64,000 bases of DNA from NCBI GenBank assembly GCA_021399435.1, contig JAJTUP010000054.1, positions 248,001 to 312,000 on the forward strand, in the 5' to 3' direction. The notes under the pieces were generated by a model that was not told the origin of the DNA, ran no database searches, and saw only the letters and a list, made by a program, of their open reading frames with translations. Positions 7,248 to 59,362 of this stretch are shown one piece after another (position 1 is the first letter of the stretch; each line of letters begins with the position of its first letter). The position numbers were made by a program, and so were the translations under genes. The stretch is from Diaporthe sp. PMI_573. Taxonomy: Eukaryota > Ascomycota > Sordariomycetes > Diaporthales > Diaporthaceae.

Positions 7248-10088
7248 TGTAATGGTATGGAGGGCACATCAGTCTGATTGCAAGAACCTGCAACTTCGAG
7301 AATGACTTAAACGTGGATATACTTCTCAAGCGCAGAGAAAACGCGTATACTACGCTTCTCAAAGTCGTTGAGAAATTGGAGATTACCAAAGCGCTGGGGG
7401 TTGTTCAAATCAGGATATGGAGCCCGGGATACCAAGAGCGCAGTCAGAGTTGCAGTTGCGTTGATGGGGACTGCTTGCTAGTACACACTGTAGTCACTGG
7501 ATGGACTAAGACTATTTTTTATCCATAGTAGGCAATGTGCGAAGCAAGTTGAATGGTTAGGGCTGCTTTGGGGCACAACTTTACGCTTTACCCGATCGCT
7601 TCAGCAGTTTCGGCCATGAACGCTCGCCCAATGATTCCTGTAATGGTCCAATTAAAGAAAGAAGAGGAAGGACTGAGTAAAGCAATGAAAGCGACTAAGG
7701 CCATTACAAAAGGCAAATTGCCTTTGGAGGAGACGAGGGCTGCAGCGGGCACGGTGGACGAGGAATTGGTCACAAGGAAGAGAGCTATAGGGTCACCCGA
7801 ATCCACCGCATGGAAGAGGCGCTAATCCCCACGGCGAGGCTTTCCTATCGACACGTCCTGCTCTCCTTAATATTAGCTAGGATTTGAGAGGTCTTACACG
7901 GCCGGTCTCGTGGCTACGCTTCGTCACCTGTTCGACAAATGATTACCAGCTCTAGACCGATGGGCCGGAGCCTAGATTCACCATTACTATGGGCTGGCAT
8001 GAGAGGCAACTTGCGAGCCCTAATCTCTCTTCACATCGCCCTTCCCAAGAGATTAATTCCTTTCCCGTTCACCGGCAAGCTCAGATCAGGGTAATGGACG
8101 TTGAAAGGCAATGGTGCGAAAGCCAAGGCTCATCCAGCAATATAATGTCCGTAGTGTCAGTATCAGCAACCCCAATCCTTTCAAACTCTAGCTCCTTATT
8201 AGTTCTTTGCCTGAGCAACAGCAGGACGGCCCATGATGGCGTTCTAAAAAGTGGGAGGTATTTGACGCAATCGAGGAAGAGTTCAGCACGGAAATCAAAC
8301 CTAAATTCAGAGGCACTCCTGCCACCACATTAGAACACCCGCATCTGTGAAGGCCGGCGTTTCCAACAGGTGGACGAGTCCCGACGGCCCGAGCTCCCGT
8401 ATGTCATTGCAGCCAGCATACACGCAGCACCGGCAAACTACTCATAATTGACAAACGATCGGGGAGGTGAAAGTCACGTTTTACAGCCGCGTGAATGATC
8501 GAGCAGGTGCATTTGAAATTGCATTGGATTTTGCCTTCGCTTCAGTCGGGTCCTTGCGAAATGCTGCGAAGACTGCTTGCGCAATAATGCGCAATACCCA
8601 GATAATCAACAGAATCACAGTATTTTGGGCGATGTTCTGGTACTGTCGACAGTACTCGACTTGACTTACGCAACATCATCTCTGATGAAAAATGGGCTTG
8701 CGATGTGAGGTGGGAGTATTGCCAAGCGCAGAAGAAGCAGGATGAACCCCTGCCAAGACGTTGGCGCCACATTGAGAGACGAGAGCTGAACAAGAAGTTC
8801 TTATCGAACTTCAAAGCTGACTACCAACAAAAAGGGCGTACTTTTGTGATGGTGGCGTACTTCTATGAAGGGCTTCACAGCACAAGTCCAGGGCTGTAGA
8901 AAGTTCTCAAAAGCACAGTATTTGTCTGATCACAGGCTTTAGTGAGTGACTAATGAACGGGAGTAGCTACTGTACAATAACATGAATTTTGGACTCGGGG
9001 AAAGAACGGCGATCCAATAGCGACAGCAGATACTGTAACGCGGGGGCTTTCGGTTGGAAATATTCTGTTGACCGCTTCTGCCTTGCTTCCGTCAGTACGA
9101 GGGGTTACAGGCTTCTTATGCGTTCATCATAAAGGTAGTTTCGGGATTGGAACAACAATTCAGCAACACCTTGGGGCCTTTTCCCCCCTGATTCTTTAGA
9201 GTAAGGGTAGAGGGAATGTTAAGTATGCCAAAAAAAATATATATATATCCTTTTAATAATTCTTTGCATACCAACCCACTGAAGTGCGGTCCCTCGCGGG
9301 ATCTGTTGAGACAAAATACTCCGTCTCTTCATCTTGTGCCTCAAAAGCCGATTTAAGGAAAGACGCGCTTGAGATGTAAGCCTGGCGATTGCGTGGAACC
9401 CGGGCTTCCAATTAGGATCATAGTCCTGACTGCAGTGCCAATCACGATAACGTTCAATGCCTTTGCCCCGTTGCCCCTACGTCCCGCAATTTTTAGCCTC
9501 TTGGATGGGGCGCATCCTCCACGCTGGGCATAATATTGGTGACTTGAGACTATTGTCCCAGAATTCACTCGTCGCAAAGAGACACCCAAGCTTAGATAGT
9601 CTGACCACTTTCGACGACCAAGATCCATGTTGTTTTTGGCTTGACGGAGGAAGCCTGTATTTATATCCTGAATAGGTATGCCATTTGGTGCGAAGTAAAA
9701 AAAGCTGTGTCCAGGGTTGAAGGTGCCGAGTTCTTGCTCATCTCTCGCGTTGGGGCGTCCCCCAATAATGGCGAAGTCTGCAGTGGCAGCGGCTGCCAGC
9801 GGAAACGAAGACTCTGCCACTGTAACTGGATGTTGCGACTATGTCTGAATCCTCTATAGCCTTTTTATTATCGGTTGTAAAGTACAACATACGTTTAGCA
9901 CACGAGAATAGACTTCGGAGTGCATGTTTGGGGATAGGAGTAATATATCACCTATTGGGAGGGTTCGGCTCATAGATTTAAATTAGTCTGAGCTGCGAGT
10001 TTGTCCATGCTATAGCTTGGCGCCAAGAATCGTCCAGGTAACAAATTCCCGCCAACTAGCCGCTGTCAATCATCCCTAGCAATCCGCT
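7248..10088. other. Intergenic, no gene recognised
   Basis: Several open frames of 60-155 codons occur, the longest on the minus strand at 9353-9820, but none shows recognisable domains, paired exons or clear coding character. An AT-rich patch lies at 9230-9262. I see no repeat with matched ends. Confidence 0.4.
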
Positions 10089-23829: not shown

Positions 23830-23866
23830 CACCCCCTCAGACTCGCAGGCACTGGGAGTCTGCGTT

Positions 23867-26800
23867 TTACTCCCTTTCAACTGCTTTCAGTCTGTTATTT
23901 ATGGGGTCTTCCCGTAGCGTTGTCTCTCCATGTCTTGTTTTCACATCTTTTAGGCCCAACTGGTGGAGGAATCCTTTCCACTTTCCAGCCGGTAATGCCT
24001 TTGTCAACCCATCTGCCATCATTTCTGCTGAAGGTGTGTATTCAACCTTGATCGTGCCTTTTTGTGTTTCTTGCCGTAGCCAGTGATTGTGTATATCCAC
24101 ATGTCGTAATTTGGTCTTGAGTGTTGTGACTTCTGAGTTGACCAGTTTGATTGTTTGTGTGTTGTCACATTCGATCTTGATTCGCTTGTTGTCCAGGTCC
24201 ACTGAAAGTTCTGTGAGGAGCCGGCTCACAAATAGTGTTTCTTTTGCTGCTTGAGCAAGAGCTAGAAGCTCTGCCTCCGTTGTTGATGTAGTGACCGTGT
24301 CTTGCTTGTTTGCTCTCCATCCAATCAGGCCTCCAAACAGTTTCATTGCGAATGCCTGGGAACTTTTCCGATCGAGGGTGTTGTCTGCGAATGAAGCATC
24401 GCTTGCGACAACCAACTCTTCGGTGTCCTTGAAGCAAAGAGCAAGGTGTTTGGTGCGTTCGAGGTAGAGCAGCACGCGGTCGGCAGCATCTTGGTGTTTT
24501 CGGCTCGGATTGGTTAGGAATCTTGCAAGTCTTGATGTAGCGAATGCAGTGTCTGGTCGTGTGGAAATGGCGGCGAATAGGAGCGACCCGATCTTTCGTT
24601 GGTAGGTCTGGACTTCAGCTTCTGTGGCGGCGTCGATTCGAGGCACCAGCTCTTCGGCTGTCATGGGGACTGTGTGGGAGAGATTTTTCTTGTTAGCCAG
24701 TTTGGCAATCTTCTCAATGTATGCGGTCTGAGCCAGCCAGATCCGTCTGTTTGGACGATCTCTGAGGATCTCCATGCCCAGGAACCATTGAATCGGGTCC
24801 CCTCCACTGATTTTATACTTCTCTTGGAGCTGGTGGGCCAGTTCATCGACTTGATCTTGTCGGTTCTTTCTATACGCAACGATAATATCGTCTACGTAGA
24901 AGAAGACCAGGATGCCGTTCTTGGTGTAGCAGCAGGGTTCATGTGGGACTTGTTTGTATCCACATTGGGCAAGTGTCTTTGTGAATTCCTTTTCCCAGAG
25001 CAGTGGTGAAATCCGCAGCCCATAGAGTGCTTTGTTCAGCATCAAGATTGTGCCCTTCTTCTCGTATCCTCGAGGCATTCTCATGAAGATATCTTGATCG
25101 ATAGGAGCGTGCACGAACGCATTGACAACGTCGTATTGGATCAGCTCGAGATCAAATTTGTTGGCAATGGCGATCAGTGTTCGGAATGACCGTCCCGCGA
25201 GAGTTGCTGCGTAGGTTTCTTGTGTTTGTCCTCGCGCTTGTTGATCTCCGCGGACCACGAGTCTTGCTTTGCATTTCTGAAGAACGCCATGCTTGTTGAA
25301 TTTGTAGACATACACCCACATGCAGTCCAGGATTTGTTTTCCTGCTGCGCGGCGGTCTTTCTTGAGGATTTCGGTCCATGACTTCATTTCAATGTGACTC
25401 TGCAAATGGTCAGCTTCTGCTTGTCTGAATATTGGTCCAAGTGGATGATTATCCAGGTCATTGTGCCATCTTGGCGGTTCGGGGAGGTTGCTTCTTTTCA
25501 ACTTCACCCCCTGACGCAAGCGTCTTTCAATTTGTGCCTTCGTCAGGTATTTTCCTTCTGACTTGGCCATCCAGGCAGATTTTGTGCCAGCGATGAATGC
25601 GGCCTGCCACGGGCTTGTCTTTTGATTTTCTTCAGTAGACGGCATTTCTTCGTCAGACTGGGTTTGAATTGTGTGTGCGAGCAGGGCTGACGGCGGCGAT
25701 CGAGGAGGAGTAGGTAGCAGGGTGAATTTGGCTTCTGTGTAGGGGCCGTTTTCTCGGTCCGCCTCGGAGCGATCATCCTCTGCAGTCTCTACGTCTGCCT
25801 CCTGGGCGCTATCGGCATCAAGTCCCTCAAATTCGCGGTCGTGTTCGGAATCTTCTGCCGGGGAGCTTTCTTCAATCAGATCTTCTCCTTCCGGTTCCGA
25901 TATTGTGTCATTGTCTGGGAGGGCGTATTTTCTTGTCCACTCCGCGAGACGATTGATGTCTGTGGTGAGAAGCTCATCTTTGAAGCCTTCCCAATTCCCA
26001 TCAAACACTTCGTGCTCATTAAAGATCACGTCTCTTGTATTGACAATCTTTCCGGTAGAGGGAATCCATATCCGGTAGATGTTCGATGATCGGTATCCAA
26101 CAAGGTAACCAATCCATGCACGTGGCTCGAGACGTTGACGTCTTCTTTTCTTGAGCTGTGCGTCTGAGGTCATCGCGTAGGCCTTGCAGCCAAATACGCG
26201 AAGATGAGTTTGATCTGGTCTTGGATCTGGTCGTGGGATACCCAAGCGTTTGGCAATCGCTGAGTGAAATTGGTAGTAGGGTGCCTTCCAGTCCAGTCCG
26301 TAATTTGGTGTTCGGTTGTTGAGATAGACGGTTGTTCGTCCAATTTCGGGCCAAAGAGAGTGTGGGAGTTTTGAGCTTGTTCGCATTGCACGCATCTTCT
26401 CCTTGATCACACCCCCTGAGCGCTCGGCTCCTCCGTTTTGTGCTTGTGTGTTGGGTGCTGAGGGCTCGATCTTGATATGTTTTGACTCGAGAAATTCTCT
26501 GACGGCTCGTCTGCGGCTGAACAGTTCTCCGTCACATTCGATGATCTTGACCTTGGTGTTGTATTGCGTCTTCATCATCCCCAGGAATGATTTCATAACC
26601 GTGAGGAGGGTTTCGCTATCACGACTTTCGAGGTAGTAATCCCAGATGAGTCCTGATGCTCTGCAGGTGAGCAATAGTTGCGACGTATAGTTGTTGATCC
26701 CTGGTTCATAGTCGTGAAAGTCAAGTGCTATCCTTTCGCCTTCTCGTTCGAGGATCTCCCTCGGTGCTCGACGGATTTGCCTCGTGATCTTGGCTAAGGC

Positions 26801-27421
26801 ACAAGCTTCACATTCGACTGTTGTTGGTCCCTGGATGCGCACCCCCTGAGATGAAGAAACGAGGTGTTCAAGCGCGCTGGGGCCTGGGTGACCAAGACGG
26901 CCGTGCCAGAGGATGGCTTCGCCTGTGAGTGGTCTCCTTTTGGTGTAGGTAGTGTGTTTCTTCCTCCATGTGTTGAAGGAACTTTGTATTTCGTGTGGTT
27001 GGTACTCGATGACATATTGGCCGTGAATATCCCTGAGTTTGCACAGGGTCGACCTGTCACGTCGTTTCAGTGTTGTTGGGTCATGTTCGTTATCCCAGAA
27101 GATGCCCTTCCTTCGGAGTTGTCTGAGAGAGACGAGTGTTGTGAGGAGTCGCGGGCAGAGGGCAACGTTTTCGAGGTGTAGGATTGTTGGTCCGCTGCGG
27201 ACCGCCATTGTACCGTACGCCAGTACTGGCAGCTGTCTGTCTCCGGCCCACAGGTAGTCATCGTGTGTGGCTGGTCTCGTGTTGAACAGACGCTCGTTGT
27301 TGTTCGTGATCGAGATCGTACTCGCTGGGTCAAGTATCACCGAGTGTCGAAGAGGGTATTCTTCTGCGTTTATGGCAAAAGCTCCCCTAGCTTCTATACT
27401 GGCAACACAGTACCCCGGGAG
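23867..27421 (-). CDS. Copia pol polyprotein (protease region, integrase, RT, RNase H)
   Basis: Open for about 1,184 codons after the gag stop and in the same frame as gag, so no frameshift is needed. Domains in order: protease-like N-terminus with VILDPASTISITN; GAG-pre-integrase region with GRLGHPG and CEACALAK; integrase core with Asp in ALDFHDYEPG, Asp in IIECDGELF and Glu in QNGGAERSGG. RT follows with QYDVVNAFVHAPIDQDIFM, LNKALYGLR and the active site FFYVDDIIVAY. RNase H carries VVASDASFAD and STTEAELLALAQA. No internal stop is visible, and length and order are normal for Copia. The protease site reads DPAS rather than the usual D[ST]GA. The first ATG-like codon of the separate pol frame is a GTG at 27340, which also argues against independent initiation. 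Confidence 0.92.
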   Translation of the reverse strand, partial: LPGYCVASIEARGAFAINAEEYPLRHSVILDPASTISITNNNERLFNTRPATHDDYLWAGDRQLPVLAYGTMAVRSGPTILHLENVALCPRLLTTLVSLRQLRRKGIFWDNEHDPTTLKRRDRSTLCKLRDIHGQYVIEYQPHEIQSSFNTWRKKHTTYTKRRPLTGEAILWHGRLGHPGPSALEHLVSSSQGVRIQGPTTVECEACALAKITRQIRRAPREILEREGERIALDFHDYEPGINNYTSQLLLTCRASGLIWDYYLESRDSETLLTVMKSFLGMMKTQYNTKVKIIECDGELFSRRRAVREFLESKHIKIEPSAPNTQAQNGGAERSGGVIKEKMRAMRTSSKLPHSLWPEIGRTTVYLNNRTPNYGLDWKAPYYQFHSAIAKRLGIPRPDPRPDQTHLRVFGCKAYAMTSDAQLKKRRRQRLEPRAWIGYLVGYRSSNIYRIWIPSTGKIVNTRDVIFNEHEVFDGNWEGFKDELLTTDINRLAEWTRKYALPDNDTISEPEGEDLIEESSPAEDSEHDREFEGLDADSAQEADVETAEDDRSEADRENGPYTEAKFTLLPTPPRSPPSALLAHTIQTQSDEEMPSTEENQKTSPWQAAFIAGTKSAWMAKSEGKYLTKAQIERRLRQGVKLKRSNLPEPPRWHNDLDNHPLGPIFRQAEADHLQSHIEMKSWTEILKKDRRAAGKQILDCMWVYVYKFNKHGVLQKCKARLVVRGDQQARGQTQETYAATLAGRSFRTLIAIANKFDLELIQYDVVNAFVHAPIDQDIFMRMPRGYEKKGTILMLNKALYGLRISPLLWEKEFTKTLAQCGYKQVPHEPCCYTKNGILVFFYVDDIIVAYRKNRQDQVDELAHQLQEKYKISGGDPIQWFLGMEILRDRPNRRIWLAQTAYIEKIAKLANKKNLSHTVPMTAEELVPRIDAATEAEVQTYQRKIGSLLFAAISTRPDTAFATSRLARFLTNPSRKHQDAADRVLLYLERTKHLALCFKDTEELVVASDASFADNTLDRKSSQAFAMKLFGGLIGWRANKQDTVTTSTTEAELLALAQAAKETLFVSRLLTELSVDLDNKRIKIECDNTQTIKLVNSEVTTLKTKLRHVDIHNHWLRQETQKGTIKVEYTPSAEMMADGLTKALPAGKWKGFLHQLGLKDVKTRHGETTLREDPINNRLKAVERE

Positions 27422-28654
27422 TCAATCATCGACTTCCTCGACGGCTTCTTCTTTCGTCGGACGAGGGGTTTTGGACTTGGATTTCGATCTCGGACCCTTG
27501 AGGGCTCGGACCTGTGCTTGAAAATCAGCATCGTTTTCGAGTTTTTCACGAACTCTTTCTTTGACATCCTGATTTGGCTTCCACCTTGGAAATGCCTTCT
27601 CAGGGAATACATAGTAGCATTCTGCAAGGGCGTGGGGATTTGCACATGCGAGGCAGCCTTTTTGACCCGAGGAATAACGTCCCGGATCGGCTCGAATCCC
27701 GCGCTTTCCACCACGTGAACCAGTCGCACCTCTACGTGGCGGCTTCGAATCTTCAACGACATGGGCGTCCCCATTTTCCTCATCATGACTACCAGAGCCA
27801 TCGTAGGTAGTTGTAAAAGCTCCTTTCGCGACCTTTCCCTTTTGGGGGTCGTGGCTTTCCAACTCCTGACGGAAGTCTTGCCCGATATCACGATATTCGA
27901 GGCTCCCATCTGCTGAAGCGTGTTTTTGTGCTTGTTTATAGGAGGTGGCCCAGATAGGCATTACTCCCCGTATTGCAAGTAGGAAGTCTGAAAACCAGAT
28001 TGTTGTATGCTGTGTTTCTGGGAGTTTCTTTTGGATCCCTTTGGACATCATCTCTTCCCACTTATCGATCCAGTTGTACGCCTCTTTGGTTGTACGAGGT
28101 GGTTTGAGGACCTTCTTGTATTCTTGATGAAGATGTAGCATCTCGTCGTGAGTGCTTTGGCCACATCTCTTTTGTAAGTTGTCATGCCATTTCCAGAGTG
28201 GTTCTCCTGCTTGGCAGCATGTTGACTTGTATGCAGGGGCAACAGTTTGGAGCAGCCACCTTGTGAGCTTCTCTACTGACTGCCGTTCCTCCTTGTACGA
28301 TGCGTCAAGTTGTTTATACCAGGTGAGGTCAAGATTAAATGCCTTAAGACCATTGTCGGTCAGATCGGTCATCATCCATTGTCCATTGTTCTTTTCTTGG
28401 ATTGTTTCTTCGTCCTCTTCCTCGTCGTTGGTCATCTGTGATCTCGCATTTCGCTGTGCGTGTGGTTTCTTGGTGTATTTCTTCTTTCGAATATCCGGCA
28501 TCTCCGGCTGAGGGAGTAGGGAAGTCTTATTCGTTATGTGGGATTCAAGTCCAAACGTTTGGGCCTGGAGCTCGAATTCGTGGTGCCAATCGTTCCAGTC
28601 GCCTGGTTTCGCTAGTATCGCGTTGAGGGTCTTCGTGTTTACGTAATCTGCCAT
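27422..28654 (-). CDS. Copia gag protein, 410 aa
   Basis: Retrotransposon structural protein. ATG at 28654 lies 34 bases inside the 5' LTR end and starts MADYVNTKTLNAILAKPGDW. The middle resembles the Copia gag helical domain (LTRWLLQTVAPAYKST, YNWIDKWEEMM). A knuckle-like CLACANPHALAEC (CxxC...H...C) lies near residue 340. The last residues EEAVEEVDD end in TGA followed by C. Translation past this stop continues directly into pol with LPGYCVASIEARG, consistent with a gag-pol readthrough product. Confidence 0.9.
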   Translation of the reverse strand: MADYVNTKTLNAILAKPGDWNDWHHEFELQAQTFGLESHITNKTSLLPQPEMPDIRKKKYTKKPHAQRNARSQMTNDEEEDEETIQEKNNGQWMMTDLTDNGLKAFNLDLTWYKQLDASYKEERQSVEKLTRWLLQTVAPAYKSTCCQAGEPLWKWHDNLQKRCGQSTHDEMLHLHQEYKKVLKPPRTTKEAYNWIDKWEEMMSKGIQKKLPETQHTTIWFSDFLLAIRGVMPIWATSYKQAQKHASADGSLEYRDIGQDFRQELESHDPQKGKVAKGAFTTTYDGSGSHDEENGDAHVVEDSKPPRRGATGSRGGKRGIRADPGRYSSGQKGCLACANPHALAECYYVFPEKAFPRWKPNQDVKERVREKLENDADFQAQVRALKGPRSKSKSKTPRPTKEEAVEEVDD

Positions 28655-28688
28655 GTTTGAATCGGCTTGAGGCAGTGAGACTCTTAAT

Positions 28689-31899: not shown

Positions 31900-32026
31900 G
31901 GCTATCAGACCGACCTAGACCGACCGGCCGCGCACCCAGACAGACCAAGACCGACCGACCGGGAGCCTTGACCAACCCAAACCGACAGACCGAAGGGGCC
32001 GGTCTAGGTCGGTCGGTTTGTTAGCC
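31900..32026. repeat. Short inverted-repeat element (MITE-like), 127 bp
   Basis: Ends are inverted: GGCTATCAGACCGACC on the left, and GGCTAACAAACCGACC as the complement of the right end. Many further GACCGACC/GGTCGGTC motifs lie inside. No target duplication is seen. It overlaps the 3' end of the Crypton-like reading frame. Confidence 0.5.
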
Positions 32027-33331
32027 ACACTGTGTAAGAGTACTATACGCAGGCACCGCATCAGCTTAAGGAAGCCATCGGCGGCTAGGTCGTCGTCGTC
32101 GAGGCCGCCTTCTGCCCAGCATTGCCGGCGCGCGCGTGCCTCAAAGCGGGGCTCCCACTCCTCGATCCACGGCCAGAGCTGCTTTTGTAAGACGTACGGC
32201 GGTTCGTGGGCCGCACGCGCGAGGAAGTAGTCCCCCGGGGACGCCGAGAAGCCAGCGACGATACGCATGAACTGGCGCGGTAGGTGCTCCTTCCTCGCCG
32301 TCTTATTTAGCTTGCCGTCTCGTAAAAGGCTGACGAGGCAGCCACAGGGGGTCGGGCCTTCCGAAGGCGGATAGTCGAGTAGGGATAGGTCTGCAAGCTC
32401 CATCTTACGGCGGTTCTCCCCTCGTAAGAGGTAGTAGTGGCCGAAGAGGAGGTCGACTCGCGTACGGAGATTTTGCGGCGTATACGCGGCCCCGCTGAGA
32501 AGGAGATCCTGGATCCGGAGCCATTCATCGGGGGAATAGCCGGCCTGGATCCCGTCGGCTCCGCGGTCTTTAAACGAGGCACGGTCGTGCTTCCCCCGCT
32601 GCCGGCCCCGTTGCTCAAGGATGCCTCGTACGGCGGCGCCCCGGGGGTTCTCCGTATTCGAGTTGCCGTGGGCCACCTGGAGCCGCCAGAGCTCGATAAC
32701 GGCCGCGATATAGGCGTCGATAGTGCCCCTCATAAGCAGGGGTCCCTCGGTAAGGTCTACTGCAGCCGGCGCAAGGGCCGTGGGTGGCACGTAGCCCTCG
32801 CGGTCGTCCGCGAGCAGCTCGGCGGCCTCGGCCAGGGGAACCTCCAGGGCTTCGGCTAGGCTTTCGGCCTCTGCCAGGGCCGCGGCCTCGAGCTGCTCCT
32901 GTTCGAGCTGTTGCCGTAGCTGTGCGGCCTCGCCTTTGCCCTTACCCCTACCCCGCGCCCGTGGCTTCTTCCGCGGCGGCGCTACGCGTCGTGAGAGAAT
33001 ATCCTCTTTGAGCCACGCCGCCAGCTTGTCCGGCGTTACGAGCGAGCCGTCGGGCCAGCTATAGAGCGAGCCGTCTGCTGCAGCCCGGGGTGTATGGCAC
33101 CAGGCCTATAGGTATTCGTCTGTTAGCCGCCTAGGGGGCCCTACTTAAAAAGGGGCGGAAGGGGGGGGGGAAGGGGGGGCCGGCCGGGGGACGCGCCTTC
33201 CACTCCCGCTGCTTCGCCGCGTAACTCCGCGCCGTGTTCGCCGGCTGTTCGTCCTTCTTCGCCTGGAGGCCCGCCCTCCGGGCGGCACGGGCGCGCTCGT
33301 CCGCGGCCGTGTACGAGTCGTCCGCGGCCAT
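31915..33331 (-). pseudogene. Crypton-like (Ndc10 domain 2) protein, 3'-truncated
   Basis: Minus-strand coding region resembling fungal proteins with the Ndc10/CBF3 domain 2, considered Crypton tyrosine-recombinase relatives. The N-terminal frame (ATG at 33331) ends NTARSYAAKQREWK. After a gap of about 100 bases with a stop or intron (TAG at 33106-33108), a second frame is open to 31915. It reads AWCHTPRAAADGSLYSWPDG, LVTPDKLAAWLKEDILSRR, a charged coiled-coil, GTIDAYIAAVIELWRLQVAHG, LRTRVDLLFGHYYLLRGENRR and ADGFLKLMRCLRIVLLH. After that the family similarity stops and the frame runs into the 31900-32026 inverted repeat. The recombinase C-terminal catalytic residues are absent. Confidence 0.65.
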
Positions 33332-50689: not shown

Positions 50690-50854
50690 GACGAAGCGAG
50701 CCGGCAGTTCTACACCTGGGTTTCGGTAAAAGGCAGGTCAACCACACATTATTCATGTCAGTCTCTCCTAACTAGCGGCATTTTTCCCAAGCAATTTTTG
50801 TGCTTTTAGCAATTGGTTTATATAGGCTGATGCCAATTTACACAAACCTGTAAT

Positions 50855-51057
50855 TGTTGAATGGCCTTTGCCATATGGCGATAGTACGTACGTACGTAGG
50901 GGTCTGTTGGTTGGTTCTGATTGTATTGCTTGCTTAGGGAAACGGGTGTACTTCGTACGAAGGGGAAGAGGCCACTCTTCCCCAGCCGGGCCCCCGGCTG
51001 ACTAAGCACACCCAACCTATCGAACTACGTGCGATCCAACCAGGTGCTATTCCAACA
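50855..51057 (-). repeat. 3' LTR of Copia element 2
   Basis: 203 bp. On the plus strand it starts TGTTGAATGG and ends TGCTATTCCAACA. Contains GTACGTACGTACGTAG and TTCGTACGAAG. Confidence 0.93.
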
Positions 51058-51497
51058 CAGACTCTCTTTTCTTTTTGAGATCGCACGCCCTGAAAACCAT
51101 GAATTTGAGCAAGTTGAATTGCTCGTACGATAGCTCTTTTCCAGAGCTATCTTTTGCAACCAAGGTCAGGTTGCACTGACCAGTTTTGACCAAGTTCGGT
51201 GTAAGTGACGTACGGTACACCAGGAAAACCGTTTGGCCCCCGGGTATCACGACGACACTTTTCTCCCCCTTTTCTTCCTCCTTTTCGCACGGCAACAACT
51301 TCTCAAGCAGCAGACAAAGGAAACTTTCTTGCAGCACTTTCAGCAGCATTTTCCTTTGCCGTCAGTGATTCATTCGTACGGGTGAGCACTTGCCCAGCCG
51401 TAAAGGGAAGATACGGCGACAGCGCACACTTGCACGCTGTCCCGGCGAATGTTAAACACCCTTCCTCTCCCTTTCTTCCCTCGACTTCTTTCTTCCT

Positions 51498-53800
51498 TCA
51501 TCGCACGGTAGCTTCCTTTGCTTCGTGCGGTTCCTTTTTGTCCAGCCTATCCACAAACGCTTCGATTCGAATTCTGAGCGTATTTGTAGATATGAGGCGT
51601 TCCAGGGCCTGGTTGGGGGTCTTCTTCGTACAGGCATCTGCCGGGTTGTCTTTGCCATCGATCCATCGTACCTCTGAGATCTCTTTCTTTTCGTACGACT
51701 CTCGGAGGGACATGATATCTATCATCAGTCTCTTCTCATCTGTAGTTCCTAGCTTGACTAGGCATTCGTACAGAGATCGTGAGTCTGAGCAGATCACCAG
51801 TGGGACTCGTGGTATGTTCAAAGAGTCTAGTATCCGGTTGAGCGTCGTACTAAGGGCAATCCCACTATCAAAGCCCGTAGTCATGCCATAGAGTTCACTA
51901 GCCAGAACGCTTCGTGTAACTCTTTTACACTTCGTAGAGCTCCAGTGGATGATATTGCCCTGGATCTCAAAGTCATTCTCCGTACGACCTGTTTCCGTAG
52001 CCAGCACGATGATGAACCCTAGCTGTGAGCTTAGGTCCTTGTTGTTTGCAAAAGATCCATCTGTGAAGATGTACAGTTTTGCTCGTGCGAGGTCAAGTGG
52101 CACATATGTTAGACCCCTGGATGGGTTCCTCATTTGCCACTCTATTCGCGCGTTCAGAGCCTCGATGTCTTTTTCCTCTGGCTCTTTGACTTGTGCTGCT
52201 GCTGATAGGTCGTACGAAGCCTCGGGTTGGCAGATGGAAGCAATGTATGCTCCCCTTGCCCTTTGGGCTATGTACTGTTGAGGTGCGTCTTCCGCACGAG
52301 GGTCAACCAGGCTGAGTTGACTCGCCTGTCCCTTTTGTACGAAGGTGATGTTCTCCCCTTCGAGACTAATTCTGCCTCCGTTGAACTCAATTGGTTGTTC
52401 TGGGGTCAGAATAGTCTTGGGCTTCGCACGGAAGTTCTTCTTCCTCAACTCCTCCTCCTCCTTGTGCGAGAAGGGCTCAGTTGCAAAAGTAAAGGTATCG
52501 TCTGTTTGCATACCTGTGATAGCAAAGTTCTCTGGGCCATCTGTGGTATATAGCAAACATGGGTCGTACGTAGAGATCTTCATCCCTAGGGCCTCTGTGT
52601 GGTGCGAATGGTATGTTTTGAACCAGTAGAGCCCTGATTCTGCAAGTCCGTACAATGGTTTCGAGATCAAGAGGACTGTTCCTTCGGGGTACCTCTCCTC
52701 AAGCTCTGTAGGCAATCGTGCGATGATCGTTCTGGTCAACCTGTCCTCAGATTGAGTATATGCTTGGGTGATATCCCTGAGTTCCCCTTGTGCCCCAAAG
52801 TCTCGTACGAGGGTAGGGCCTAAGGCAAAGATCAGCCTCTGGCTCATCCTCTGAATAGTTGGGGCCTGGGTGAGGATGGCTTGTTTTTCTTTATCCCCAT
52901 AGCCTTGTACGACCAGCCTGGATTTCTCTATAGGCTTGGTAGACTTGTTCTTGATCTCTCGTACCATTCGCGTCTTGTATACTCGAAGCCCTTTGTGAAT
53001 TCCCTCTGGTTTGTATCGTACGAAGGAAAACACATTTTCATTTGCAAGGGCATTCAGTTCCAGAGCATCTGATTCCTCAAAGGGACCTCCTGGCACATTG
53101 ATAACGTTATCCGCACGGAGTTTGAGGGCTAACTCGAAGTTATCCTTCTCCTTCTGGGTCAAGAATACTTGGAAGTATCGTGCGGTTGTTTTCCGAGGTC
53201 GTCCTCGCCTCCTTGGCTGCTCTGGCTCTGGTCGCACGACGATCTCGTCTTGGACCTCATCAGGCTGTGTCTCCGCACGATGATATGCCTTAGCTTGGGT
53301 AGCTCGAAAGGTTGCAGGTCCATTGACTGTTTCGATAGTCAAATTGTGCTCATCTTTGGCCTTGAGTTCGTGCGGTCCAGTCCATCCCTTGTTTTCTCTC
53401 CAAATCATCACTTCGGCGCCTAATGGTAGGGAGAGAACTTCGTGTAGATCTGGGCCGTTTCTTGTGTTGATCGCGCGGTTGATCTCTACCTCTGCGCGAA
53501 TCTTTCGGAGCATCTTCATGGCCTTCTGAATTGCTTCCGCACGAAGTGTGATTTCCGGCGATGGTGGTGAGTCTTGGTTGATTCGGGGGTATGCCCCGAA
53601 AACAAGAAGGGTTGGGACGATACCATTTGGGCCAGCAGTATCGTTGAGAGCTTTGACTGCCATCTGGAGTATAGTCTCCTTGTCTGTAATATGGCCGATT
53701 TCTTGGGTAAGAATATCGTACGCCCTCCGGAGAGGAGCGTGTAGTCTCTCAACTTTCCCAACTGCCCAATGTGCCTCAACTGGCATCTCTTGGGGTCCAT
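51498..53800 (-). CDS. Copia pol remnant: integrase end, reverse transcriptase, RNase H
   Basis: The frame is open further upstream (to 54131) but becomes recognisable only from about 53795: PQEMPVEAHWAVGKVERLHA, the segment holding the third catalytic residue (E) of integrase, then MAVKALNDTAGPNGIVPTL. RT is complete: TQAPTIQRMSQRLIFALG, ELRDITQAYTQSEDRLTR, ISKPLYGLAESGLYWFKTYH and the active-site variant GMQTDDTF (QTDD instead of YVDD). RNase H follows with IFTDGSFANNKDLSSQLGF and ICSDSRSLYECL, ending near the 3' LTR. The first two integrase Asp residues and the zinc domain are missing because protease joins straight to this segment. The product could not integrate DNA by itself. Confidence 0.85.
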
Positions 53801-55914
53801 GAGATCTTCGCGCGAGGGTTCTCACGTAAATATGCAAGCACTTGGGCCTTGCCAACTGTCGAGACCTTCGCAGCTCCAGTATCCCACAGTTCTCCCTGAT
53901 ACTTCGTACTATAGGGATTGTGTAGCACGAATTGGGTTGCTTCTGTGGTCTTTGGGGCTGTGTATATGTCTTCTCCGGTCGTACGGTGGAAGAAAGCAGC
54001 ATCGAGGAGGTAACTAGAGGAGCCCTCGGTTGCCTGGCCCTCAGAGTCCTCCTCGTCCGAGCTCTCTGCCATGCTCCGCACTTGGTTCTCACCTTCGTAC
54101 TTAAGAAGAAAGCTCTCAAAGCCTTTCTCACCTAAGTCGTACGGAGGTTCCTCCCCCATAACCTGACAGGCTTGGAGGTATTGGTCTCTCGTACGCTTCC
54201 TCTCAGCCTCTGGATGGTTTGTAGACCAACAGCCTTCCTTCTTGCACACAAAGCACCTCTTGTTTTTGAAGGTGCGGCTTCTGAAGGGCTGTCTGGAAGA
54301 AGATCCTGCACGATAGGGAATGGTTGCCTGTCCCTGATAGTTCACAGGCCTCCCTTTTCCGTACGATATCCTCTGGCGGTCTTTGAAAGGTGCTCTGTAC
54401 CGCCTGTCCACAAAGTTGATTTCAGGGGCTGCTTCGTGCGCAAACTGGCGAGTAGTTGTCTTCCTGTCTTGGGCTACTTGAATAGCTCCTCGAAGGTCTG
54501 AAAAGAGACCTTCGCACGTAGGCTTTTGCTGCATGATAGCCAGTTCGAACTCCGGCACTCCTCGGCATGCTCGAACTACAGCCGTGCGAAGGGGGATCTC
54601 TCCTTGGTACCCTTGTCCTAGGGCCCTTTGTACGAGCTGTAGTCGATCCAAGAGCATCTCTAGTACCTCGACTTGTTTCTTGTCGGGATTCTCCTGTTTG
54701 AGTTGTACGAAAGAGAGCGTAGTCCAGTCTGCCCAGTATTGGTTGTGATTGGTGTTGGTGTTAAAGTGCATATCCATGAGGGTATATACTTCGTCCCAAC
54801 GCCTTTCTGGGCCAATATGTTCTAGCCAGAAGTCGTACGCACGGTCTTCTAAGATAATAGGGAAGACAGCGTGATATTGATCCTCTCGTACGCCGGTGTG
54901 GCGACATGTTGCGATGAATGCTCGAGTCTTATCGTATAGCAAATCGTACGGCTTCCCAGTATAGTTTCGCTTCTTGTTCCAATGCTTTGAAAATTGTGAG
55001 CTTTGCTGTGGCTCAATTGGGCTATTGTAAACAATCCGTGTTGGGGGAAGGTCGTACCCATTGCTCCGAGCAGGTATAGGTCGCGTTATGTCTTCCGTGC
55101 GAGGTAGTTGTGGGTATGCTTCCACCTCGTGCGAAAACCGTGCTCCCGGGGGTGCTTGTCGTACAGCCTGTGAATCCACCGTTTGTGGCCTCGGCATATA
55201 TCCTGGCTCTTGACTTCCATTATATACGCTTCGTGCGGGTGGGCTTCTGTACTCGGCTGGTGCTGGGGGACTCTGGTGTGTCTCTACCGTAGGCTGAATG
55301 TTCTCAGAATATACGCCTTGCGGTTCTGTTCGCGCGAGGGACTCTTGGGCAACACGGTCACCTGGTTCTTCCCCAGCGAGAGGGTCTCGGGTTTGTATCG
55401 GAACAGGAGTTCGTTCCTGGAACCGTACGGGTTGTTTCCCCTTGCTAGCCCGTGCCTGGGCCTCCCGAGCTTCCTCTTCTTCGATTTCCTCTAGGGTCTT
55501 CTCTACCAGGCGGCGTATTCGTTCTCCATATCTTCGTGCGGGTGGGACTTCGATTCCCTTGTTTGTAAGGGCCTCAATCAGCTCCTTTAGGAACAGACGA
55601 TCCACTGTGTTGTATTGGACCTCGGTCCATCCCTCAAAGTCCTCGCACAAAGATATTTGGAGATTTCTTCTAGATATTCCCATTGTTCTTATTTCCCATG
55701 TAAGCCGTGCGATGTATGTGTTCAGCTCGGCTTCCGTGGGAGCGTTGTGAGGGTCAATTGGGTTAAACCATATCTCGAGGTTCGTACGGCTCCGCCATAC
55801 TGACATCGGGATAGTGCTTTCCCCTCGAACTTCTTCGTATGTCAGCTGGTGATGGATTTGGCTATTGCTCGCCTCAGTCTGGGACTGTTCTTCCGGAGTT
55901 GTCGGGTTTGACAT
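53776..55914 (-). CDS. Copia element 2 gag-protease, 712 aa
   Basis: Starts MSNPTTPEEQSQTEASN. The N-terminal 150 residues are helical; a long proline-rich linker follows (PPAPAEYRSPPARSVYNG). The capsid-like domain (about 330-480) contains DLLYDKTRAFIATCRHTGV and YDFWLEHIGPERRWDEVYTL. A zinc knuckle variant CFVCKKEGCWSTNHP lies near residue 580. An aspartyl protease site YQGELWDTGAAKVSTVGKAQ (DTGA) is near residue 680. The frame then ends after 30 more residues (KISWTPRDAS-stop) at the deletion junction. Much larger than the gag of Copia element 1 and not visibly similar to it. Confidence 0.85.
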   Translation of the reverse strand: MSNPTTPEEQSQTEASNSQIHHQLTYEEVRGESTIPMSVWRSRTNLEIWFNPIDPHNAPTEAELNTYIARLTWEIRTMGISRRNLQISLCEDFEGWTEVQYNTVDRLFLKELIEALTNKGIEVPPARRYGERIRRLVEKTLEEIEEEEAREAQARASKGKQPVRFQERTPVPIQTRDPLAGEEPGDRVAQESLARTEPQGVYSENIQPTVETHQSPPAPAEYRSPPARSVYNGSQEPGYMPRPQTVDSQAVRQAPPGARFSHEVEAYPQLPRTEDITRPIPARSNGYDLPPTRIVYNSPIEPQQSSQFSKHWNKKRNYTGKPYDLLYDKTRAFIATCRHTGVREDQYHAVFPIILEDRAYDFWLEHIGPERRWDEVYTLMDMHFNTNTNHNQYWADWTTLSFVQLKQENPDKKQVEVLEMLLDRLQLVQRALGQGYQGEIPLRTAVVRACRGVPEFELAIMQQKPTCEGLFSDLRGAIQVAQDRKTTTRQFAHEAAPEINFVDRRYRAPFKDRQRISYGKGRPVNYQGQATIPYRAGSSSRQPFRSRTFKNKRCFVCKKEGCWSTNHPEAERKRTRDQYLQACQVMGEEPPYDLGEKGFESFLLKYEGENQVRSMAESSDEEDSEGQATEGSSSYLLDAAFFHRTTGEDIYTAPKTTEATQFVLHNPYSTKYQGELWDTGAAKVSTVGKAQVLAYLRENPRAKISWTPRDAS

Positions 55915-56029
55915 GGTGGTGGTCTTCGCGTCGTATCGTGCGAATCGAGTTGTTGATATATATATTGACTATGTCGTCTCGTATAGTCTGGGGTTGTATA
56001 GTTGTGCAATGGCGCACACCTTGCTACTC

Positions 56030-56168
56030 TTTCTCGTACGATCTCAGCCTTCACAATAGTGAAGACCTTCTCAAGCAAAAGAATTGAGTAGTTTAGTCGT
56101 CTAGAAGTGCTTCTTTCTCGTACGATCTCAGCTTCTACCGTAGTAGACGCCTTCTCAAGCAAAAGAAA
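56030..56168 (-). repeat. Two 84-base-spaced leader repeats with hairpins
   Basis: In the 5' leader of Copia element 2, TTTCTCGTACGATCTCAGC recurs at 56030 and 56114, and CTTCTCAAGCAAAAGAA recurs near 56067 and 56151. Between these conserved parts lie different short hairpins: CTTCAC-AATA-GTGAAG and TCTAC-CGTA-GTAGA. Confidence 0.85.
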
Positions 56169-56316
56169 GAAGTACTCCTGGGATTTAGCACAAGCGCACG
56201 ATTCCCGACTCTCCCGAGGCAGCACTGCTGCAATCTCCTCAGGCTAGTCGTCTTTGTGCGAGCCTCGTCTCTTCACTCTTGCCAATCTGTGAATTGCCAA
56301 GCAATCCACTGATCAG

Positions 56317-56519
56317 TGTTGAATGGCCTTTGCCATATGGCGATAGTACGTACGTACGTAGGGGTCTGTTGGTTGGTTCTGATTGTATTGCTTGCTTAGG
56401 GAAACGGGTGTACTTCGTACGAAGGGGAAGAGGCCACTCTTCCCTAGCCGGGCCCCCGGCTGACTAAGCACACCCAACCTATCGAACTACGTGCGATCCA
56501 ACCAGGTGCTATTCCAACA
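56317..56519 (-). repeat. 5' LTR of Copia element 2
   Basis: 203 bp, one difference from 50855-51057. Drives the minus-strand transcript. Confidence 0.93.
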
Positions 56520-56727
56520 GATAAGGGTTATAGAAATCATGAGGGAATTCGTAGCAATGGTGGGCTGACCATGCTGTTTGGTATTCTTCTGACAAGACAT
56601 CTAACTGGACGTTTGGCTTAAATAATACCCACAATTCCTGTAATTTGGGAATGAGGTCAAGAAAGTCGAAGACGCTGTCGCCGTGGTCCAGAACAATCCT
56701 CTCGAGGCAGAGAACATTTTCTGTCAT
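56520..56727 (-). pseudogene. Unidentified coding fragment ending at the Copia LTR
   Basis: Minus-strand frame MTENVLCLERIVLDHGDSV, FDFLDLIPKLQELWVLF and SAHHCYEFPHDFYNPYL continues into the LTR and stops after two residues. It looks like real protein with leucine-rich spacing, possibly the end of an F-box/LRR-like protein, but this is a guess. No continuation is found on the other side of the element at 50854. Confidence 0.25.
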
Positions 56728-56744
56728 CCAAAATTAGCCTTCTA

Positions 56745-56873
56745 ACACAGATTGCTCTACACACACCACTCGAATCCAGATAATCTGGGTACCAAAAGAT
56801 AGAGCACATTTGTAGCTATCCTTTGGTACCCAGATTCCTTGGATTCGGGTAGTCTGTGTAGAGCAATCTGTGT
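56745..56873. mobile_element. Foldback MITE, 129 bp, with TA duplication
   Basis: Nearly the whole element is an inverted repeat: 56745-56802 pairs with 56817-56873 with about 85-90 percent identity around a spacer of about 15 bases. Both ends read ACACAGATTGCTCTACACA inward and are flanked by TA (56743-56744, 56874-56875), as in Tc1/mariner/pogo-derived MITEs. Its ends do not match the pogo element at 4418-6328. Confidence 0.85.
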
Positions 56874-57390
56874 TATGCTGTTGAAATGACAGTGTGCATA
56901 CAAATTGGGCGTGCGACGACACGTCCGTGTCACTAGTGTGGTTCTGGTACTGTCGAATACAAACCAGTGTAATTCCGATGTGACGAGGCGATAAGGTTAG
57001 CCTACACATCTGTCAGCTCACGTAAATTGAAGACCAAGCACATGGCCGAATAAGAGGCCTAAATGAGACTTTTTTTAAACCAAAAACATTATACAATACT
57101 ATACTATACTGTAGCAAGATAGGTAGAGTCTATATGCAGGGTCTATATTTCTCTTTACTTAGATGAAATCCTCGGTATCCTGGAACACTTAGCTTTTCCT
57201 CCTGTAGATAAACCTCATTATCTTAAAAAGGCTGAAATTAAAGGTTGGAAAAAGTAAGAAAAAAAGTACTATACTGTATGTAGTTTATTTACGAAACGGA
57301 ATTTGTGTTATGTACTTTGCTTTCAAGTCTATGTAAATCAAAAGATATGAATGTTCATGAAATTATTTAGCAAAGGTAACCTCTGTACAG

Positions 57391-57642: not shown

Positions 57643-58809
57643 TTATGTATGCCGTCTAGACCTGCTCTGCTTGCCTGTCTTTTCTGCCCTGTTATCGTCC
57701 GGGTGGTCGTCGTCTTCCTCGTCTGCTGCTGCAGACCGAATCCATTTTTGCAGTCGTAGCGGTGGACCGGGCGCTTCTGGGTGTTCTCGATGGAAGGTCT
57801 CTAGGGCTATTGCCGCGTTCTTGAAGTTCTCGGCAGGGTACCAAGTGTCGTCAGGGTCGCATCCTCGCCAGGCCACCTGGTACTGCAGTTCTCTGTTGCG
57901 GCCGTGGAGTCGGCTCTGTTTGATTTGTTCGACCTCGAACTCTGGTTCGCCATTGATTTCTTCTGGCGGGGGTGGTACCTGCACCTGCTGTGGCAACGGG
58001 TCGTCGTCGGCCTTCCTGAGCCGGTCGGCGTGGAACAGGTTGGGCATCTTATACGAAGCTGGAAGGTCGAGGACGTAACTGTGGCCTCTTTCCTCTAGAA
58101 TCTCAAAGGGGCCTACGAACTGCGAGTCGAGGCGGGTGGTTGGAGTCTGTGTTGAGAATCCCTTCTTTCGCAGGAAGACCTTGTCGTGAACCTTAAAGTT
58201 CACCGGGCGACGCTTCTTGTTTGCCTGGGCCTTCTGTTTCTCCTGCGTGCTGGCGGCGGCACGCCGGGCGAGTTCCTGCACCTCCTTGGTCTGTCTGACC
58301 AGCTTAAGGGCCCTCTCGGCTGGTCCTGCTGTTGCCTCTGCTGTGCTTGGGTCCAAAGACAACGGGTTCCGTATGTCCTTGCCTAGCATGACCTTTAGTG
58401 GTGACATATCGATTGCGGAGTGCCACGACGAGTTGTGCGCGAAATCAAGGGCTGGCAGGTGTACACTCCAATCGTCTTGGTACTTGTCGATGTAAAACCG
58501 TAGCCGCTGGTCCAGCTCCTGGTTCGTGAACTCAATCGCACCTTGAGTCTGGGGGTGGTAGGTGCTCCCGCGCCGATGCTTTGTTCCCGTCAGCTCGTTC
58601 AGCTTTGCGAGAAAGGCTGAGACAAAAGGTCCGGCATTATCACTGATCCAGATCGTCGGCAATCCTAGGAAACGGTACAGATAGCGATAGTATCTCGTGG
58701 CCAGTGTCTCCGCTGTATCGGTCTTCTTCCCCGGAAGTGTGGCCAGGAGTCTGCTTAGCTTGCACACAAAGCCCCATACGTAGTCGTACCCAAATCGGTC
58801 CTTAGGCAT
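57643..58809 (-). CDS. Pol fragment: integrase C-terminal half plus chromodomain, 388 aa
   Basis: Begins MPKDRFGYDYVWGFVCKLSR, inside the integrase core just after its first Asp. The second Asp lies in TIWISDNAGPFVSAFLAKL and the Glu position in TYHPQTQGAIEFTNQELDQ. The GPF/Y region VGPFEILEERGHSYVLDLP follows. A C-terminal chromodomain reads EFEVEQIKQSRLHGRNRELQ then YQVAWRGCDPDDTWYPAENF, the hallmark of chromoviruses, which target chromatin marks when integrating. The first catalytic Asp, RT and protease are missing. Confidence 0.9.
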   Translation of the reverse strand: MPKDRFGYDYVWGFVCKLSRLLATLPGKKTDTAETLATRYYRYLYRFLGLPTIWISDNAGPFVSAFLAKLNELTGTKHRRGSTYHPQTQGAIEFTNQELDQRLRFYIDKYQDDWSVHLPALDFAHNSSWHSAIDMSPLKVMLGKDIRNPLSLDPSTAEATAGPAERALKLVRQTKEVQELARRAAASTQEKQKAQANKKRRPVNFKVHDKVFLRKKGFSTQTPTTRLDSQFVGPFEILEERGHSYVLDLPASYKMPNLFHADRLRKADDDPLPQQVQVPPPPEEINGEPEFEVEQIKQSRLHGRNRELQYQVAWRGCDPDDTWYPAENFKNAAIALETFHREHPEAPGPPLRLQKWIRSAAADEEDDDHPDDNRAEKTGKQSRSRRHT

Positions 58810-58812
58810 TGT

Positions 58813-59362
58813 CTTGCCGTCAACGACAACATATTCCCAGACAACCAGTATGTCTTGGGAGTGTCAGGGCGAGAGTACCTCACGATCGGGTACATTTCAT
58901 CTTTCATGTACGAAAAATCTGGAGGACAGAAGGCGTCAGGGGCAGGGCGTGCTCATGGTCGGAGGGGAGAGACGTACATGCGCAAAGCAAGCTGCGCGAA
59001 CTACTATCGATGTCTTCAGGGAACTTGATGAAAGTGAACATGTCGGCAGTACCGGGGACCATTTCTACATGTCTGATGCGGGCCAGAGCATCCTCGTCAG
59101 AGTCGAGCAGCTCACTTCGTGTCCGAGCTCCGTGGGACTCTTCAGAAGAATCACTGTCTCCTGCAGCATGCTGCGGCCGTTGTATTCCCACAGCGGTAGC
59201 CGGGGAACGGCCCTTCACTCGACCAGGAAGAGCTCGTGTACGGGTATTCTTCCCCCGCATGACGTGACTCCGTATGAGCTTACGATCTCCAGCAGCCGTC
59301 TGACCATGGGCGTCGGCGGTGACAAAGACAAACCCCTTAGCCGCTCGTGGCCCCTTGAGCAT
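58813..59362 (-). pseudogene. Fungal regulator-like gene, 3'-truncated by the chromovirus fragment
   Basis: Exon 1 from ATG 59362 reads MLKGPRAAKGFVFVTADAHG then AAGDRKLIRSHVMRGKNTRT. This F-V-F-V...RSHVMRGKN pattern starts many fungal proteins related to C6-type transcription factors that lack the zinc cluster. It goes on with acidic D/E-rich spacers and PGTADMFTFIKFPEDIDS. A GTACGT donor near 58977 and a TCCAG acceptor near 58922 (intron of about 55 bases) lead to exon 2, YFSYMKDEMYPIVRYSR and KTYWLSGNMLSLTARQ, which then meets the retroelement at about 58812. Most of the protein is missing. Confidence 0.55.

Follow-up and report, generated by a model that had tools for sequence, protein, structure and literature searches.

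Evenly spaced palindromic sites through a GalEa Copia retrotransposon of Diaporthe sp. PMI_573: a candidate self-recognition array in double-stranded DNA

Introduction

Why should one palindromic hexamer, CGYRCG, recur through the whole length of a retrotransposon, genes included? The question was raised by a 64,000-nucleotide stretch of the fungus Diaporthe sp. PMI_573 (assembly GCA_021399435.1, contig JAJTUP010000054.1, positions 248,001 to 312,000; hereafter the window), which carries a Copia long terminal repeat (LTR) retrotransposon at 50855-56519 on the minus strand. The sites form a dense array that is palindromic, concentrated in the element, evenly spaced in two families and maintained in number across three, and traces of the motif were found, from proteins only, in a second branch of the fungal GalEa clade of Copia elements. 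The array is probably a selected set of sites in double-stranded DNA; its maintenance by selection and its reading by a protein are inferred.

Motif density in the window element

CGYRCG was counted 58 times in the 5665 bp of the element and 26 times in the remaining 58.3 kb of the window. Shuffling the element with its dinucleotides preserved (n = 1000) gave a mean of 2.92 and a maximum of 9, so that the random expectation of about five given by the initial annotation was too high. Its other counts were accurate: about 50 sites had been reported for 51058-56316 with about four more in each LTR, and exactly 50 and four each were found; all ten of its example positions were genuine sites; and the other Copia element (23830-28688), credited with about one site, contained one. 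The extension to YTCGYRCGAR, described there as usual, proved to be only a tendency (T at -1 in 39/58 sites, A at +1 in 27/58).

The element is organised as follows (window coordinates):

50855-56519, minus strand: whole element, a Copia LTR retrotransposon assigned to the fungal GalEa clade, with 58 CGYRCG sites (from the LTR pair, a weak RVT_2 match, CHSeq1 and the site count)
56317-56519, minus strand: 5' LTR with TGT...CA ends, 4 sites
56308-56316, minus strand: conserved hairpin sequence 1 of fungal GalEa elements (CHSeq1), CTGATCAGT, directly 3' of the 5' LTR (compared with PMC5445492)
55915-56316, minus strand: untranslated leader with a 63-nt duplication, 4 sites
53776-55914, minus strand: gag-protease open frame with a C2-C4-C4-H Zn finger and protease DTGA, 20 sites
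53781-53791, minus strand: deletion junction, about 0.7 kb of the protease-integrase region being absent in alignments to other copies (L033, 3792-4502)
51498-54131, minus strand: pol open frame comprising the integrase end, reverse transcriptase (RT) with QTDD and RNase H with CQPEA and ADxxTK; 20 sites in the tested 2220 nt
51058-51497, minus strand: 3' untranslated region, 5 sites
50855-51057, minus strand: 3' LTR, 4 sites

Synonymous-codon shuffles (n = 2000) were carried out for both frames: against 20 sites observed in each, the gag-protease frame gave a mean of 2.7 (maximum 8) and the 2220 nt of pol a mean of 2.1 (maximum 7). The non-coding parts were similarly in excess of their shuffle means (LTR, 4 vs 0.17; leader, 4 vs 0.33; 3' region, 5 vs 0.29). 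Site density was 9.2 per kb in the two coding stretches, which hold 40/58 sites, and 10-20 per kb in the LTR, leader and 3' region. All three codon phases were occupied. These counts and phases bear out the placement of sites in LTR, leader, gag, pol and every codon position that had been claimed initially. They also bear out the argument that neither a protein repeat nor codon bias would suffice, since neither the codon-preserving nor the dinucleotide shuffles, a check proposed with that argument, reached the observed density.

Of the CGnnCG words in the element, 58 had a pyrimidine-purine centre and two were of other kinds, compared with 26 and 172 in the rest of the window. Expectation maximisation returned a core GYRC with outer C/G and T/A, and TCGTACGA as the best word. 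Elsewhere in the window, 32001-33000 holds 7 CGYRCG against 3.3 expected in this 65% GC stretch; the flanks of these sites are unlike the element motif, and they are therefore probably ordinary.

Families rich and poor in the motif within one genome

A query with the RT region gave 75 matches in the genome, and 30 loci were read. Three families were decorated: fam1 (13 loci, 97-100% protein identity, 22-43 sites per locus of 4.2-4.9 kb, flanks included), fam2 (five loci, 77%, 35 sites in each) and fam3 (two loci, 73-74%, 21 and 22 sites). A fourth, fam4 (three loci, 59-60%), was undecorated, with 2, 3 and 6 sites against about 7 expected. In unbiased word counts, GTACGA came first and CGTACG within the top three in fam1, fam2 and fam3, to which the palindrome TCGYRCGA is common. 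At the fam4 locus L051 no motif-like word was on top, and at L053 the leading word was ACGTAC (11 vs 1.8), in part owing to a few overlapping sites clustered close to the edge of the locus.

One fam2 copy was read over 8.7 kb: its first 1500 bases were site-free, and from there on no 500-base block lacked a site, across gag, pol and the 3' region and as far as the stretch extends. The motif was rejected as an insertion target, because the flanks were poor in sites: 44 stretches of 500 bp outside 30 LTRs held only 7 in total (0-2 each). In a joined stretch of fam2 (L061 and L047), a long 3' region follows pol at about 7205-8716, with 20 sites including near sites.

Palindromic symmetry and concentration in the element

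The first expectation-maximisation matrix was seeded with a palindrome and was symmetric by construction; the symmetry claim rests on a separate sense-strand matrix, seeded with GTAC, which correlated with its own reverse complement at r 0.97 (fam1) and 0.90 (fam2). After correction for the A-rich sense strand, the flank preferences were nearly equal (left T 2.1-2.6 fold, right A 2.3-2.6 fold), and the sense-strand flank asymmetry, a candidate RNA signal, largely vanished. From this reverse-complement symmetry, the motif looks to be read on double-stranded DNA, by a dimer.

TCGTACGA occurs 9 times in the window element, about 120 times its genome density. Across the 83.7 Mb genome it was counted 1074 times, compared with 1478 for the reversed word; it is thus not enriched, and a host-wide motif was rejected.

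Spacing of the sites

The gaps between CGYRCG sites in the window element had a coefficient of variation (CV) of 0.54, compared with 0.97 for random placement, and 0/5000 random placements were as even. When near sites were included, gaps averaged 91 bp (window copy) and 93 bp (fam2), with CVs of 0.50 and 0.61 against about 0.9 (0/2000 random placements as even). Gaps below 30 bp were scarce: one against 12 expected in the window copy, and five against 14.7 in fam2. No clear period was found that would indicate helical phasing.

Turnover of sites and possible signs of selection

Site positions were compared on a codon alignment of RT and RNase H, in which 4-fold synonymous sites differ by 55-63% among fam1, fam2 and fam3. 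Motif sites were retained in place in 5/13, 4/16, 5/11, 5/11, 4/7 and 5/6 alignable cases, compared with 21-22% for generic hexamers. Related copies had been proposed initially as a test that would count against the motif if neither the number nor the positions of sites were conserved; the number is maintained across fam1-3, and the positions are only partly shared.

At lineage-specific sites, amino-acid identity was 54% in fam1 (50 comparisons) and 50% in fam2 (22 comparisons), against 77% elsewhere; in fam3 it was 67% as opposed to 75%, though from only 6 comparisons. In two instances a TAC that fam1-3 have within the motif corresponds to a TTT codon in fam4. Either the gain of a site altered the protein, or sites arise at positions where the protein tolerates variation. 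Among fam1 copies (18 loci, internal columns with at least three copies), variation was found in 5/356 columns of motif 8-mers and 163/4264 columns elsewhere (p 0.017).

CpG content and mutated relics

Outside the motif, the observed/expected ratio of CpG was 0.55 in the window element, compared with 0.82-0.85 in host stretches and 0.86 in the rest of the window. Outside their sites, fam1-3 gave 0.53-0.67, fam4 1.04-1.06 and the other Copia element 0.87. The depletion is general over contexts, being least after T, and avoidance of half-sites was rejected for this reason. It hints at a link to CpG-directed silencing without proving one.

Seven relics mutated by repeat-induced point mutation (RIP) were fetched with their flanks from a larger set of matches. 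They contained GTACGA 35 times against 5.2 expected, and their top words included GTATAA, ATACAA, CGTACA and, in the RT part, GTACAA, the expected decay products of TCGTACGA. We read these relics as descended from decorated ancestors. RIP or CpG decay was rejected as a source of the motif, because both remove sites and the relics show likely decay products. The GalEa relics L054-L060 have many TAG and TAA stops and few TGA, as CpA-directed RIP would leave.

Traces in proteins of other fungi

A "ghost" test was devised in which TCGTACGA is traced in proteins by its three readings (S-Y-[DE], [FILV]-V-R and x-R-T-[IKMNRST]) and ranked among 256 palindromes; such a test can be used to look for concealed DNA codes when protein sequences are the only records. 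For calibration, decorated families gave z 3.4 and 3.2 (fam1, L034 and L037; rank 1/256), 4.0 (fam2, rank 1) and 2.1 (fam3, rank 7), and undecorated fam4 gave -1.3 and -0.2 (ranks 245 and 148). The window pol frame reached z 3.2 (rank 2), and RT pieces of fam2 and fam3 ranked 10 and 4.

The test was applied to 225 homologs from protein searches (the best 120 of 359 and the best 120 of 701 matches). TCGTACGA ranked first in 20 of them and reached z of at least 5 in 17, of which 14 had all three readings raised. The other 255 palindromes combined reached z 5 in 14 cases, and seven of these were the alias and runner-up TCATATGA, which shares the peptide S-Y-[DE] with TCGTACGA. Positives came from Colletotrichum tabaci, C. 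truncatum, C. incanum (rank 1, z only 3.3), Xylaria palmicola and X. intraflava (gag). P0105 of X. longipes is doubtful, its z of 4.4 coming from one frame only (0, 0 and 14 hits), and was counted as positive on the tree. Negative proteins were found in the same species (C. tabaci P0082 and P0180; C. truncatum P0197).

An RT tree was built with FastTree from 218 of 229 rows (the 225 homologs and four family representatives), short RT matches being left out. Proteins with z of at least 4 were scored as positive, 15 ambiguous homologs (z 2 to 4) were uncounted, and fam1-4 were labelled from DNA. The positives fell into two main groups, with one further case (P0058) apart from both. Clade A comprises 14 positives (fam1-3 by DNA and the doubtful X. 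longipes protein included), 7 ambiguous and 3 negatives, one of them close kin of fam3; the distant clade B comprises 12 positives, one ambiguous and one negative. Negatives made up 176/203 scored rows, and at least seven changes are needed on the tree. No clade-B element was found among the matches scored in the Diaporthe genome, the best of which was fam4.

In two Colletotrichum proteins, ghosts fell on fam1-3 DNA sites (P0003, 6/8 vs 0.9 expected; P0119, 5/7 vs 0.8 expected); in two remoter clade-A proteins they did not (2/7 and 1/6). Ghosts were evenly spaced in 4/5 clade-B proteins tested (CV 0.52-0.63, p < 0.02). A search for DNA of relatives in viral contigs returned 10 stretches with the pattern and 0 relatives.

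What may read the array

The reading that we propose is as follows: two GalEa branches would have made a self-recognition array of TCGTACGA sites out of their entire sequence, coding parts too; the sites would be evenly spaced, a predicted dimeric protein would read them as double-stranded DNA, and selection on spacing would maintain them even to the detriment of the encoded protein sequence. In this full form the proposal is evenly balanced between true and false. About 58-75 sites (core GYRC, best word TCGTACGA) would tile the element for one such protein, specificity would come from site density, and selection would keep the number and even spacing of sites rather than their exact places. 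Among the functions first suggested for the motif, a site for a dimeric protein fits best, given the palindromic symmetry, the shuffles, the number maintained in relatives and the concentration in the element, although the initial interpretation as a whole is supported only in part.

The putative reader is probably an ordinary element protein, Gag or integrase; the alternative is a conserved host protein. Two observations suggest a standard element protein: GalEa families with and without decoration occur side by side in this genome, and decorated polyproteins gave no sign of an added domain. Polyproteins of at least 1400 aa had a median length of 1652 in decorated elements (n = 12) and 1675 in undecorated ones (n = 97), distances between the anchors found were similar, and a partial comparison (the integrase-RT interval was available in 1 and 0 proteins, and small extra frames lay outside it) gave no sign of an extra DNA-binding domain.

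Even cover of the whole length implies that the reader must reach every ~100 bp of DNA. This would fit a role at the level of chromatin, each nucleosome-sized stretch being kept open or unmethylated, or a coat on complementary DNA (cDNA). We tentatively favour the former, while holding it to be somewhat less probable than its negation: in the integrated element, or in cDNA entering chromatin, the putative reader may keep the full length open and unsilenced, much as VANC does for the VANDAL elements discussed below. If true, the coding sequence of a retrotransposon can hold a further code at the level of DNA, powerful enough to be accompanied by altered proteins, by which one protein could distinguish the element from other genomic DNA. 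The array would then offer direct access to the resistance of transposons to silencing or to the handling of their own cDNA, and the decorated families beside undecorated ones in one species offer a ready natural experiment.

Several results weigh against the proposal. The fam3 stretches, whose ends are not delimited, were not evenly spaced (CV 0.86-1.01), and evenness of ghosts was absent in 3/7 proteins (the fifth clade-B protein, P0003 and P0119). Purifying selection is only marginal: for hexamer columns alone, variation among fam1 copies was 4/268 (p 0.06), and when sites of any copy were counted p was 0.04 for 8-mers and 0.13 for hexamers. L051 and L052 of the undecorated family match with identical scores; that family is thus also recent, and the array is unnecessary for survival in this host. 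RIP nevertheless struck the ancestors of decorated families. The top words of the relics also included CACACA, CCAGGA and GAGAGA, which are unrelated to the motif, and the relic test had no RIP-mutated DNA to serve as a control (0 AT-rich flanks). In fam1 neither TpG nor CpA is elevated, and plain deamination therefore does not account for the CpG loss. Finally, decoration outside this genome is read from proteins only, and the ghost test misses true cases: the window gag frame, with its 20 sites, gave z 1.2 (rank 24).

The best surviving alternative, which we consider unlikely, is that integrase or Gag coats its own cDNA every ~90 bp, serving compaction, nuclear transport or the blocking of self-insertion (target immunity). 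Tiling of the full length including both LTRs, with few gaps below 30 bp, would suit a coat or an immunity mark; nothing beyond the standard GalEa polyprotein was detected; and decoration tracks the element lineage rather than the host, C. tabaci and C. truncatum having both positive and negative proteins. Against it, trace-free GalEa elements are the majority (the 176 negative rows of the tree), and the sites do not mark insertion targets.

Slightly less likely still is binding by a host transcription factor or general regulatory factor, the element acting as an enhancer or nucleosome-free tract. The plant SBP-domain site has a GTAC core, which the motif resembles, and the same palindrome in two distant GalEa clades and several host genera is what a conserved host reader predicts. 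It is opposed by the absence of TCGTACGA enrichment in the genome, by gag and pol being about as site-dense as the rest of the element, unlike a promoter, and by the recent undecorated family in the same host.

Action of the sites on RNA is improbable; in that case they would be signals for packaging or dimerisation, scattered along the genomic RNA at the spacing of capsid contacts. Regular spacing and spread through coding sequence recall the dispersed packaging signals of RNA viruses. The matrix is nevertheless reverse-complement symmetric, and CGCACG (30) and CGTGCG (22) are both common in fam1 and fam2, though wobble pairing would favour CGTGCG. Both CGATCG and CGGCCG, which are self-complementary, are missing from the window element and from fam2. 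Packaging was one of the options raised initially; in the form of RNA pairing it is disfavoured by this balance on the sense strand and by the lack of CGATCG and CGGCCG in the window element. Nor was the predicted RNA accessibility of sites raised (mean 0.020 vs 0.050, p 0.16).

We attach an equally low probability to a mutational or copying bias that builds the motif, or to binding that merely shields its CpGs from loss with no selected function. The CpG depletion outside the motif in decorated families would suit such shielding; retention, however, cannot yield 58 sites where about 3 are expected, lineage-specific sites accompany changed protein, spacing is even in two families and only YR-centred words are in excess. 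We know of no process that writes CGYRCG. An artefact of codon usage, protein repeat or base composition is practically out of the question and was rejected, given the failure of both kinds of shuffle, the non-coding sites, the use of three frames and the decoration of all 13/13 fam1 loci fetched.

Comparison with known systems

A literature search for the word and its layout found no described system like it (most subscription papers lay outside the search), in line with the initial annotation, which knew of none. Within the literature searched, a self label of this kind has not been described for LTR elements. DNA uptake sequences of Neisseria and Pasteurellaceae are short words, spread by single gains through coding sequence, that label self DNA; they fill the whole bacterial genome at about one per kb. 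The Diaporthe word is instead a palindrome that is concentrated in a mobile element, where it reaches about ten copies per kb, and genome-wide enrichment is absent. The dispersed packaging signals of RNA viruses are strand-specific RNA features present in many spaced copies along the genome, with positions free to shift. No such strand-specificity was found here, the motif being symmetric as double-stranded DNA and its accessibility not raised.

The closest likeness is to the VANDAL transposons of Arabidopsis, in which, according to PMC5735166 and PMC10398659, a short motif has accumulated in one group of elements, differs between related families and marks the element against the host genome. 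The same papers describe VANDAL motifs (YAGTATTAY for VANC21) in non-coding regions, often in tandem repeats, read by an extra element gene, VANC, whose effect spreads over whole VANDAL elements. Here, by contrast, single, evenly spaced sites run through coding and non-coding sequence of an LTR retrotransposon, and no sign of an extra domain was found. The sites are not confined to non-coding tandem repeats, 40/58 being coding, and one 63-nt tandem duplication bears sites. The window element shares CHSeq1, QTDD, CQPEA, ADxxTK, the Zn finger and a 203-bp LTR with the elements of the GalEa paper (PMC5445492); the parts of that paper available describe no dispersed motif, and the palindrome in them (CHSeq1) is a different, single site.

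Element identity and neighbouring features

According to PMC5445492, GalEa elements have TGT...CA LTRs of 138-311 bp, lack a primer binding site and show CHSeq1, which in most families reads CTGATCAGT or CTAATTAGT, immediately 3' of the 5' LTR. Further traits are QTDD, CQPEA, ADxxTK, a C2-C4-C4-H Zn finger, a 5-bp target site duplication and one large open reading frame (ORF) with HHCC and DDE integrase. The two LTRs of the window element are 203 bp long, differ by one mismatch (BLAST) and have the sense-strand ends TGTTGG...AACA, within this definition. CHSeq1 is present as CTGATCAGT, the pol frame contains MQTDD, CQPEA and ADACTK, and the gag Zn finger is CFVCKKEGCWSTNH. The RVT_2 match in pol was weak and below the cut-off. 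The single large ORF with HHCC and DDE integrase is lacking in the window copy, which is internally deleted there; a long single open frame of up to 1821 aa is present in other copies. Despite the broken ORF, we assign the element to the fungal GalEa clade, because of its other signatures and the RT tree (123/124 rows).

An LTR query gave 41 genome matches at 98-100% identity. Around the window copy no 5-bp target duplication was found (GTAAT at 50850-50854, GATAA at 56520-56524), yet 6/14 lone LTRs read have an exact one (L003, L012, L019, L024, L028 and L030), which suggests recombination between copies or a rearranged flank. The tandem duplication of 63 nt in the leader (56028-56090 and 56112-56174) is 81% alike, with CTCGTACGATCTC in each copy; each repeat copy holds one site, so duplication too multiplies sites. 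The predicted structure of gag had a mean predicted local distance difference test score (pLDDT) of 57, with an all-helical N-terminal domain (residues 24-158, window 55441-55845; pLDDT mostly 71-91), and a sequence search against solved structures gave a single match (E 0.12).

Right beside the element, at 56743-56875, lies a 60-nt inverted repeat, 88% complementary with a 13-nt loop, perhaps a small hairpin or an insertion like a miniature inverted-repeat transposable element. At 57646-58863 there is a Gypsy-like fragment of pol that bears a chromodomain and a Tf2-like SH3 domain, and a second Copia element, nearly motif-free, lies at 23870-27421.

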